Below are positions 2,604-9,649 of a stretch of DNA of 22,384 bases, in pieces. Numbering within the stretch: position 1 is the first letter of the stretch; each line of letters starts with the position of its first letter. Location of the stretch: IMG/VR virus record IMGVR_UViG_3300028581_000266, positions 1 through 22,384 of that record. One strand, given 5' to 3'. This DNA is from a virus. The notes beneath the pieces were generated by a model. The model was not told where the DNA came from. It searched no databases and worked only from the letters and a program-made list of their open reading frames with translations. The translations under genes were made by a program, and so were the position numbers.

Positions 2604-3264
2604 TTATTGTGCTAATGTAGCTCTTAGGTTGATAACCCAGAGATCGTTGGTTATTCTTGGACATGTCGCAAATTTGTAGCCTACAGAAGCGTTCAACGCT
2701 AATGGGCCATCATAAATTGGCGGTCTGTAAATAAACGACGCTGAGTACCCATCTTGCTGTACAGTAGCATAAGCTTCCATACCAACGCAGAAGATGTTAT
2801 ACACATCGCTACCATTAACAGAAGCATTTGGGCTAATTGAGCCGATGCTTGATACCAAGAATCTAAGGTTGTTTACGCAACCCCACTCAGAACGTAATGC
2901 ATTTGTAGGAGCTGGGTAATTACTTTTTGATGTAAAGTTATTAACGCCTTCTAGCTCTTTAGTCATGTTTGTATGACATAATGCAAAATACGCATCACGA
3001 ACAGGTGCTGTACCAAACTTATCTTCACCTTCGATGTTATCGGAGATTGTATAAGCGTTGTTACCTAGTAATACACGTGTTACTTCAGACACGTCTAACA
3101 ATGTTAGCTCGGTTGGGCTGTCGCCGTTTACGCCACCAACACAGTTAATAAATGATGCTGTTGATGCCAACATATCACGTGTTAACTGATCTTCGGTTTG
3201 ACGTAGCGATACGCCTAGTCGTGCTGCACATTCGTTAAGAACTGGATCTTGGTTTTGCAATGTG
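2604..3264 (-). CDS. N4-gp56-family major capsid protein, exon 4 (C-terminal part)
   Basis: Encodes the C-terminal 218 residues of the major capsid protein, starting in the conserved segment TLQNQDPVLNE and continuing ARLGVSLRQTEDQLTRDML, the hallmark of the N4-gp56 MCP family. Read alone it looks like a gene beginning at a TTG (3260), but the in-frame codon two before that TTG is a stop, no Shine-Dalgarno fits, and the protein would lack its N-terminal third. I place the exon start at C3264: exon 3 ends in GT and the joined codon GTC gives V, restoring NEQ-V-TLQNQDPVL. The preceding base is G, as expected for the last base of a group I intron. Strongly supported by frame and family match. 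Confidence 0.88.
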
Positions 3265-3988
3265 CATTATTCTGTTACTTTTTTTGACCAAATAGTTTCT
3301 ATTTGGCGGTAGGTCTTGTTATTCCCTACTCCCAAAGTCATCCCTTGGGATCGGACTGTCGCTTCACCTTAAGGTGTCCACTCGCCTCAGTCTCTCAGCG
3401 TGACATTTATGTTTTTATATGGTACACTGTAATACATGAATAAAAATTGGACATCAGAAAAACTTAGTTATTTAGCTGGTATTATAGACGGTGAAGGCAG
3501 TATTACTATTGAAATTCAATCTCAAAGTATACGTCATAATCGCAAATGTGATTATTATTCACTGCGTCTTATAGTTACTAATACAAATTTACCGTTGCTC
3601 AACTGGATTGTTGAAAATTTTGGTGGAAACATACGCCAACGCAAACAAGTGCCAAATAGACGGGCTTGTTATACGTGGTCTCTATGTTCTCATAATGCAG
3701 CTACACTTTTAAAAGCGTGCGAACCGTACATGATTATAAAAAAAGCACATGCGGAAGTTTTTTATGAGTTTTCAACAACTATGTCGAATGCCAACGTTCG
3801 TTTATCTGATGACTTACTTTCTTATCGCAAGGATATGTATTTAAAGCTTAAGCATATTAATAAAACTTATTAAATATCTTCGCCCTTGTTGCCCTCGTCT
3901 TTACGGTGGGTTTCCAAGTCAATCAGAGCGGATTTAAAGCAGGCCATCTGCTTGCAAAACCAAATATTTCAAAGATCATATTTTAAAA
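3265..3988 (-). mobile_element. Group I intron 3 in the capsid gene, carrying an antisense homing endonuclease gene
   Basis: A 724-nt intervening sequence on the minus (transcribed) strand. P1: exon 3 end GAGCAGGT (3996-3989) pairs over 8 bp with GCCTGCTT (3944-3937), with the expected U.G pair at the splice site; the P1 loop holds its own hairpin (AAATAT/ATATTT). P7: GACTG (3392-3388) pairs with CAGTC (3358-3354). P8 is the perfect hairpin CACCTTAAGGTG (3376-3365). A P9-like hairpin ATCCC/GGGAT follows, and the intron ends in G3265. P10 looks weak (about 2 bp). The 5' core half after the IGS is similar to that of intron 1. The plus-strand LAGLIDADG gene sits between the two core halves, a usual location, but points against the intron. 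Confidence 0.87.
3436..3873 (+). CDS. LAGLIDADG homing endonuclease, antisense within the capsid group I intron
   Basis: A 145-aa protein with one LAGLIDADG motif (LAGIIDGEGS, residues about 13-22) near the N-terminus; the acidic residue of the motif gives the catalytic centre and the helix forms the dimer interface. Single-motif enzymes of this size normally act as homodimers that cut the intronless allele and spread the intron by repair. The middle (YYSLRLIVTNTNLPLLNWIVENFGG) matches the usual second half of the fold. It lies wholly inside capsid intron 3 but on the opposite strand, so it cannot be translated from the capsid transcript and needs its own plus-strand promoter; AT-rich sequence at 3413-3435 is the candidate leader, with no strong Shine-Dalgarno. 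Overlap with ribozyme core elements is avoided. Confidence 0.9.
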   Translation: MNKNWTSEKLSYLAGIIDGEGSITIEIQSQSIRHNRKCDYYSLRLIVTNTNLPLLNWIVENFGGNIRQRKQVPNRRACYTWSLCSHNAATLLKACEPYMIIKKAHAEVFYEFSTTMSNANVRLSDDLLSYRKDMYLKLKHINKTY

Positions 3989-4014
3989 ACCTGCTCGTTC
4001 AATACGACATAGGT
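3989..4014 (-). other. Major capsid protein mini-exon 3 (26 nt)
   Basis: Encodes TYVVLNEQ plus the first two bases of a Val codon (ACC TAT GTC GTA TTG AAC GAG CAG GT). This is the expected N4-gp56 stretch between the FYG motif and TLQNQDPVLNE. The 5' border is supported by the preceding G and by P10 pairing of ACCTA (4014-4010) with TAGGT (4043-4039) in intervening sequence 2. The 3' border is set by the P1 helix of intron 3. Reading on past 3989 gives a stop within a few codons, so splicing is required. Confidence 0.85.
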
Positions 4015-4049
4015 CTTTGCGTATTAAACTATTACGGCACCTAGCTTCT
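4015..4049 (-). other. 35-nt intervening sequence 2: group I P1 and P10 without a catalytic core
   Basis: Separates mini-exons 2 and 3, shifts the frame (35 is not a multiple of 3) and contains stops in the capsid frame. The end of exon 2, TACGGT (4055-4050), pairs perfectly with GCCGTA (4038-4033), U.G at the splice site: a textbook P1. Just 5' of that guide, TAGGT (4043-4039) pairs perfectly with the start of exon 3, ACCTA (4014-4010): a textbook P10. The last base is G. Only 18 nt lie between guide and 3' splice site, so no P3-P9 core is present. It could be a coreless intron acted on in trans, a deletion remnant, or an assembly collapse of a full intron. Confidence 0.75.
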
Positions 4050-4076
4050 ACCGTAAAACGAAATCTTTGCGTCAAT
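4050..4076 (-). other. Major capsid protein mini-exon 2 (27 nt)
   Basis: Encodes IDAKISFYG, the N4-gp56 segment directly after LTAVD at the end of exon 1. The 5' border follows a G (4077) and is supported by P10 pairing of ATTGA (4076-4072) with TTAAT (4283-4279) in intron 1. The 3' border is set by the P1 helix of intervening sequence 2 at TACGGT. Both borders fall between codons. Without joining, translation stops three codons after FYG. Confidence 0.85.
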
Positions 4077-4288
4077 CTTCTATTACTTTTTAACCTATTG
4101 CTAGGCGGGCGATCATTTCTGTACGCCTCCTTGTCTTTCGATCAAGGGTTGGACTATCACATCTCTTGCGAGTCTTTGGGTTTAGTCTCTCAGGCTGCAC
4201 GGTTATTCCTGCTTGCCCCTTGTTACCATAGCTTGCGCCGTAGGACTTCAAGTCAATTACCAAAGATTTAACGTGGACATTAACGTCT
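4077..4288 (-). ncRNA. Group I intron 1 in the capsid gene (212 nt, no ORF)
   Basis: Self-splicing-type intron on the minus strand. P1: exon end GTGGAT (4294-4289) pairs over 6 bp with GTCCAC (4278-4273), U.G at the splice site. P10: TTAAT (4283-4279) with exon 2 start ATTGA (4076-4072). P7: GACTA (4187-4183) with TAGTC (4156-4152). A P8-type hairpin CTC/GAG lies between the P7 strands. Downstream are a P9 hairpin CCTTG/CAAGG and further small hairpins (GGCG/CGCC, CCTA/TAGG). The terminal base is G. It shares the block CTGAGAGACT around the 5' strand of P7, and a similar 5' core half, with intron 3, so the two are related. No protein is encoded, so spread would need another endonuclease. Confidence 0.88.
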
Positions 4289-4525
4289 ATCCACAGCTGT
4301 TAGGTTTTGTGGTGGTGGAGTAATACCACTGTTCCCCAAAGGAACCATAGCTGTTTGTAGTGGGTTATATCTACGCATACGTAAAGTATTACCACCATTA
4401 CGAGGCATATTTTTACGCATTGCTGGGATATTATGAATCATGTTCGGCACAGGTACGGACAATAGCTTATAACTAAAGCTTTGTTGAACTGGCGATGGCA
4501 AAATAGAGGTTGTTGTAACTGCCAT
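4289..4525 (-). CDS. N4-gp56-family major capsid protein, exon 1 (N-terminal 79 codons)
   Basis: Encodes the N-terminus of the major capsid protein, from MAVTTTSILPSPVQQSF to QNLTAVD. ATG at 4525 has a clear Shine-Dalgarno (AAGGA). The segment RRYNPLQTAMVPLGNSGITPPPQNL matches the family's early region (basic patch followed by LG.G.TPP). After the GAT (D) codon at 4289 the frame meets intron sequence and stops within three codons. Joined with exons 2-4 it gives 951 nt, a 316-aa MCP in the usual size range. The MCP assembles the icosahedral head around the scaffold encoded just upstream (4725-5537). Confidence 0.87.
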
Positions 4526-9560: not shown

Positions 9561-9584
9561 GCTAGGGATGCTTGGCACCCTAGC
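9561..9584 (-). repeat. Inverted repeat spanning the tRNA 3' end
   Basis: GCTAGGG (9561-9567) and CCCTAGC (9578-9584) pair perfectly over 7 bp. The second arm is the 3' acceptor strand of the tRNA-Glu, so the precursor can fold either as tRNA acceptor or as this downstream hairpin. No U tract follows. It may affect 3' processing or termination. Confidence 0.5.
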
Positions 9585-9649
9585 GGGGAATCGAACCCAC
9601 GATTGCTGCCGTGAAAGGGCAATGTCCTCACCAATTAGACGACTAGGGC
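9573..9649 (-). tRNA. tRNA-Glu (anticodon UUC), CCA encoded
   Basis: On the minus strand a 77-nt cloverleaf: acceptor GCCCTAG/CTAGGGT (7 bp with one G.U), D stem GTCT/GGAC, anticodon stem TTGCC/GGCAG around loop CTTTCAC with anticodon TTC, T loop TTCGATT, and a genome-encoded CCA. The T stem is imperfect: only three clean G-C pairs before two mismatches, or a full stem if one U is bulged. It lies between the putative membrane-protein gene and the 111-aa gene. Phage tRNAs usually supplement host decoding or replace host tRNAs under attack; tRNA ends are also common integration sites. The weak T stem leaves some doubt about activity. Confidence 0.88.

Follow-up and report, generated by a model that had tools for sequence, protein, structure and literature searches.

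A coreless mini-intron in a phage major capsid gene, tethered to the next group I intron and probably dependent on its ribozyme

Phage genes with several introns, exon skipping between phage introns, and a capsid gene intron carrying an antisense endonuclease gene are all already known. A gene of phage Twort contains three introns (Landthaler and Shub 1999, as cited in PMC11878797), polymerase and terminase genes of the Bastillevirinae contain two or three (PMC11878797), and the group I intron in the capsid gene of mycobacteriophage LittleE has an antisense endonuclease gene inside it (PMC3706429, which also names a capsid-gene group I intron of lactococcal phage Tuc2009). Here we describe a major capsid gene that is interrupted three times, on a 22,384-nucleotide (nt) stretch of viral DNA (IMG/VR record IMGVR_UViG_3300028581_000266, positions 1 to 22,384), referred to below as the window. 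A first-pass annotation had considered three introns in one phage gene exceptional, which the Twort and Bastillevirinae genes contradict. The anomaly it overlooked lies in the middle insertion, a mini-intron of 35 nt that lacks a core and is bound through a helix to the intron after it. It is this mini-intron that looks new, and a search of an open-access part of the literature turned up no account of group I introns that are coreless or depend on a helper.

The capsid gene lies on the minus strand and is restored by joining exon 1 (4525-4289, codons 1-79), exon 2 (4076-4050, 27 nt), exon 3 (4014-3989, 26 nt) and exon 4 (3264-2604, including the stop codon), which gives an in-frame sequence of 951 nt whose only stop is the terminal one. 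The resulting protein of 316 amino acids is identical over its full length to the product of an uninterrupted open reading frame (ORF) in a related locus, L003 (exon 1: 100% protein identity), so that the split gene and the exact exon borders proposed in the first-pass annotation stand, as does its warning that ordinary gene calling risks missing the gene. The assignment to the N4-gp56 major capsid family was likewise borne out: scored on the identical L003 protein, TIGR04387 matched at E 1e-41 (143 bits against a cut-off of 60), and the major head protein family PHROG 1357 was matched as well. The AlphaFold2 model of the intronless L003 capsid protein reached a predicted local distance difference test score (pLDDT) of 34 and was discarded; the family assignment rests on TIGR04387. 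The same phage encodes a P22-type portal and a terminase. The arrangement of the capsid gene is repeated in four further IMG/VR contigs (L001, L002, L005 and L006), which rules out an assembly error of a single contig. Phage records returned no DNA match for the capsid region, and a search of a genome collection found only three capsid relatives.

At every border a U precedes the insertion, a G closes it, and P1 and P10 pairings are present, in agreement with the group I type splice sites that had been proposed. The further proposal that all three insertions are group I introns holds for the first (212 nt) and the third (724 nt), both of which have a P1 with a U•G pair, a P10 and a core; the second, at 4049-4015 on the minus strand, has only P1, P10 and the terminal G. 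In context, this mini-intron reads GGU^AGAAGCUAGGUGCCGUAAUAGUUUAAUACGCAAAG^ACC. Its P1 (P1a) joins the end of exon 2, which closes with UACGGU (P1a 5' strand at 4056-4050), to the internal guide sequence (IGS) GCCGUAA at 4038-4032, and the helix UUACGGU/GCCGUAA is perfect, with the U•G pair. Its P10 (P10a) pairs UAGGU at 4043-4039 with ACCUA at 4014-4010 in exon 3, an in-frame UAG stands at 4043-4041, and the terminal G is at 4015. A catalytic core of its own, P3-P8 with the G-binding site in P7, is lacking in the mini-introns, which are too short for one, making self-splicing alone impossible. To judge from its sequence, the mini-intron would function in the manner of a group I intron while being an incomplete member of that class.

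Homolog and pattern searches of IMG/VR yielded 67 distinct mini-introns, which measure 28-53 nt and share a single codon border, and about 70 related phages were compared. P1a was TACGGT/GCCGTA in 63 of these and TATGGT/GCCATA in the other 4, a conservation that is partly due to selection, as some of the search patterns required P1a. The terminal G was found in 67/67, including in loci chosen without regard to it. One pattern asked just for the downstream intron, and all 39 of the distinct loci that it returned had a mini-intron with the border U; among alleles lacking a mini-intron, the border codon ends in U in 7/52. The third P10 position was left free by the search patterns, and there the pairs vary (GGT/ACC in 46, AGT/ACT in 10, TGT/ACA in 6 and CGT/ACG in 5), such that P10 is Watson-Crick over three base pairs (bp) in 67/67, as against a mean of 34 and a maximum of 42 when partners are swapped. 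Mini-intron lengths cover all three frames, with the capsid gene reading through only without the insert, and 65 of the 67 contain an in-frame stop, compared with 46 ± 3.6 in shuffled sequences; with such lengths and stops, simple translation across the mini-intron is not possible. The stops may serve to keep ribosomes off the main intron before splicing.

Beyond P1a and P10a, the 3' half of the mini-intron pairs, in a helix that we call Pm, with exon sequence ending right before the P1 5' strand of the next downstream intron. In the window, GUUUAAUACG at 4029-4020 pairs with CGUAUUGAAC at 4006-3997 in exon 3, and the 5' strand of the P1 of the third insertion (P1b), AGCAGGU, occupies 3995-3989. 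Where this main intron is inserted after GAGCAGGU, nine fixed Pm positions are 92% paired, compared with 70% (maximum 77%) for swapped partners; individual positions show up to five pair types, and sliding Pm by 1-3 nt drops the pairing to 30-46%. In other carriers the main intron follows GAUCCCGU, UGUGUCGCU or AGACCCU, about 15 to 60 nt further along, which makes four main-intron sites in total, and there the position of the mini-intron remains fixed while Pm re-targets the exon abutting the new P1 (for instance CTGATTTTGTAA/TTACAAAATCAG in locus L011). The gap between Pm and P1 is almost always 0 nt and never exceeds a few nt. In classes 2 (0.93 versus 0.87) and 3 (scores of 19.4 versus 18.5) the exon itself is conserved, which weakens the swap test, and it is the re-targeting that makes the case for Pm there. 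When the window and L011 sequences were folded without constraints, P1a, 1-2 nt, Pm, and then P1b without a gap were also obtained.

The main intron, at 3988-3265 on the minus strand, has the features by which we assessed group I membership: P1b (AGCAGGU/GCCUGCU with a U•G pair; 3' strand at 3944-3938), P3 (3931-3926/3383-3378), P7 (3392-3388/3358-3354) and omega-G. It contains, antisense at 3436-3873 on the plus strand, a LAGLIDADG homing endonuclease gene (HEG; Pfam PF00961, 5.5e-8). Relatives of the main intron vary in P3 in a compensatory manner (TCCGCTC/GAGTGGA, CCCTCTC/GAGAGGG, CCTTTGG/CCAAGGG), and the adjoining P7 (GACT...AGTC) is invariant. The Rfam group I model RF00028, which the first-pass annotation had suggested as a check, matched none of the window introns, the main intron included, nor any relative tried. 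This check proved uninformative, as an HEG-free relative escapes the model too although such introns show clear P3 and P7; with these helices visible and P3 covarying, we take the silence of RF00028 as a limit of the model's sensitivity. Among class 1 main introns, the P1 loop (3945-3988 in the window) is often long, at 25-55 nt, and then includes a conserved stretch resembling ATCTTTGAAATTTCTTGGTTTTG; in others it is short. The first insertion, intron 1 (4288-4077 on the minus strand), is an ordinary HEG-free group I intron with P1 GUGGAU/GUCCAC and a P10 to AUUGACG.

The tie between mini-intron and main intron also appears in their distribution. In a set of 80 capsid loci found by protein similarity alone and not chosen on introns, 78 could be classified: 20 have both elements, 57 have neither, one (L014) has only the downstream intron, and in none does the mini-intron occur by itself (Fisher test, 1e-17, treating related loci as independent). 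Counted as mini-intron carriers are L001, L002, L005, L006 and L031, all with intron 1 upstream, and L080. Class 1 introns are accompanied by a mini-intron in 49/49 cases, and no mini-intron without a main intron close downstream was found where the contig permits the check. The mini-intron is also kept beside HEG-free main introns of about 225-280 nt (L210, L264, L280, L157, L111, L166, L169, L229, L268 and L170), so the tie is to the ribozyme and not to the endonuclease only. The idea that the mini-intron does no more than mask the target of the homing endonuclease is weakened by this same persistence with HEG-free introns, and by its occurrence with endonucleases of differing type and orientation, although such masking may have played a part in its evolution.

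As to mobility, L003, with no capsid introns, and L011, with mini-intron and main intron, encode the same protein, and their DNA differs at 20/80 positions around the insertions and at 3/370 in the adjoining stretches. The same comparison for the window gives 19/80 and 10/370, and all differences in both comparisons are synonymous. This is the conversion-tract pattern expected from homing with co-conversion, indicating that mini-intron, exon and main intron travel together. The survey covers one capsid family and, for other genes, 16 genes of the loci at hand: across those loci, no short insertions were found in these 16 other genes of the window, and the insertions in portal and terminase genes come without mini-introns.

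The pairings P1a, P10a and Pm, their covariation, the association with the downstream intron and the conversion tract are properties of the sequences themselves, and from them we infer that the mini-intron is quite probably a non-autonomous group I intron, excised in cis by the ribozyme of the adjacent main intron and co-mobilized with it. The mini-intron would bring both splice sites and the guide pairings, with P1a and its U•G marking the 5' splice site, P10a the 3' exon, and the terminal G acting as omega-G, and the main intron core just downstream would perform the chemistry in cis. Pm would tie the mini-intron to that core in the order P1a, 2 nt, Pm, 0 nt, P1b, core, with the 3' splice site of the mini-intron in the Pm loop, aligned by P10a. 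Many group I introns have P2 in this position, and Pm would substitute for it in keeping P1a close to the core. In the simplest order, the core would remove the mini-intron and then the main intron, since excision of the mini-intron would destroy Pm and free P1b to dock. Homing and co-conversion would then copy both elements, plus the exon between them, into intronless genomes. In classic work, a phage ribozyme core reportedly cleaved P1 stem-loops in trans. The Tetrahymena group I ribozyme accepts its 5' and 3' splice sites on molecules separate from itself, and P10 aligns the latter site (L-16, cryo-EM, PMC10020454).

We think it somewhat more probable than otherwise that these elements constitute a class of naturally occurring, non-autonomous group I introns of 28-53 nt, which would hold the substrate half only (P1, P10 and omega-G) and would depend on a helper through a tether rebuilt at each new helper site. 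A single ribozyme would thus excise first one intron and then the other, and together the two would form an addiction-like unit, because losing the helper alone would leave the gene broken.

Several points weigh against excision by the main intron. For the proposed reaction, P1a would have to take the place of P1b within a single active site, and the 3' splice site would be one located upstream of the core; we know of no natural example of such a reaction. If the main intron were spliced first, the mini-intron would be stranded. Introns at neighbouring sites do without a mini-intron (L014, and L375, L376 and L380 at the AGACCCU site), which speaks against a general need for one, and some Pm helices are short, at 5-7 bp (L208, L212 and L283).

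Among the alternatives, splicing of the mini-intron in trans, by any cellular group I ribozyme or by the codon-79 intron on its upstream side, is unlikely. The action of the Tetrahymena L-16 ribozyme on separate 5' and 3' site analogs (PMC10020454) would allow for it, but mini-introns without a nearby downstream main intron are missing wherever the contig permits the check, and Pm is rebuilt to touch the P1 of that particular downstream intron. The codon-79 intron was rejected as helper: an intron directly upstream is present in 5/70 carriers and absent in 65/70.

It is very unlikely that P1a instead offers the main intron a second choice of 5' splice site, with a minority or regulatory product lacking exon 3 and the ACC border going unused. 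Exon skipping between group I introns of phage Twort is recorded through a reference in PMC11878797, and the orientation of P1a would suit it; the residues of exon 3, however, are conserved and also occur in homologs without introns, the frame would shift if exon 3 were left out, and P10a covaries with the exon 3 border.

That the insert is what decay has left of a once complete intron at codon 88, in capsid genes made non-functional while another capsid gene serves elsewhere, strikes us as highly improbable. The window is a 22 kb fragment, leaving room for a second capsid gene outside it in this phage, but 67 distinct versions have retained the covarying pairings and the terminal G, close carriers and non-carriers differ only synonymously in the capsid frame, and decay would not rebuild Pm at four sites. 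Lastly, we reject as scarcely credible a translational bypass in which ribosomes hop the 28-53 nt and the insert stays in the RNA, since the glycine codon before the gap, the in-frame stops and the stem-loop in the gap do recall T4 gene 60 (PMC3014915), but gene 60 requires matched take-off and landing codons, the triplet before resumption is GGN in 0/67, and hopping leaves the invariant terminal G, the P10 covariation and the downstream-intron tie unexplained.

The capsid gene is in any case an intron hotspot (L014, L076, L120, L171, L196, L222, L250, L277 and others), with apparent introns at more than 12 codons (about 31, 56, 79, 97, 104, 105, 118, 144, 172, 182, 192, 222, 261 and 270) and up to about five introns in the capsid gene of L171, so that within this family, too, three insertions are not an exceptional number. 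Intron-sized insertions of 198-1044 nt occur in the terminase (L229, L179, L106, L135, L153 and L098) and portal (L157, L160 and L207) genes. The window also has a tRNA gene at 9576-9649 on the minus strand (Rfam RF00005, 1.7e-7).

If the mini-intron is spliced as we infer, it would be, to our knowledge, the first group I intron in nature to lack a core, and it would lower the minimum size of a group I type intron to about 30 nt. It would present a cis system with a single ribozyme acting two times, and would be relevant to the way in which introns become helper-dependent, a step that has been proposed in the descent of spliceosomal introns from group II introns. Annotation pipelines and Rfam would, moreover, be overlooking capsid genes throughout a large phage family. 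Its 67 natural variants and their covarying helices make the mini-intron directly testable in vitro.

Compared with described systems, the mini-intron shares with the T4 gene 60 bypass (PMC3014915) a short non-coding gap in a phage gene (50 nt in gene 60), a glycine codon, a stem-loop and an in-frame stop; in place of a matched landing codon, it has group I pairings and a terminal G. LittleE and Tuc2009 also have interrupted capsid genes, and the LittleE endonuclease gene is antisense as it is here, but theirs are single ordinary introns without a mini-intron. The Twort and Bastillevirinae genes are alike in having several self-splicing insertions per phage gene; each of those introns, however, is described with its own ribozyme core, whereas the middle insertion here is coreless and tied to its neighbour by a dedicated helix. 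In engineered trans-splicing group I ribozymes, an extra long guide helix holds the target. Such ribozymes also recognize splice sites through P1 and P10 (PMC3000392, PMC4651551), but they are man-made, whereas in the capsid gene the substrate has its own IGS and the long helix ties substrate to ribozyme in cis.
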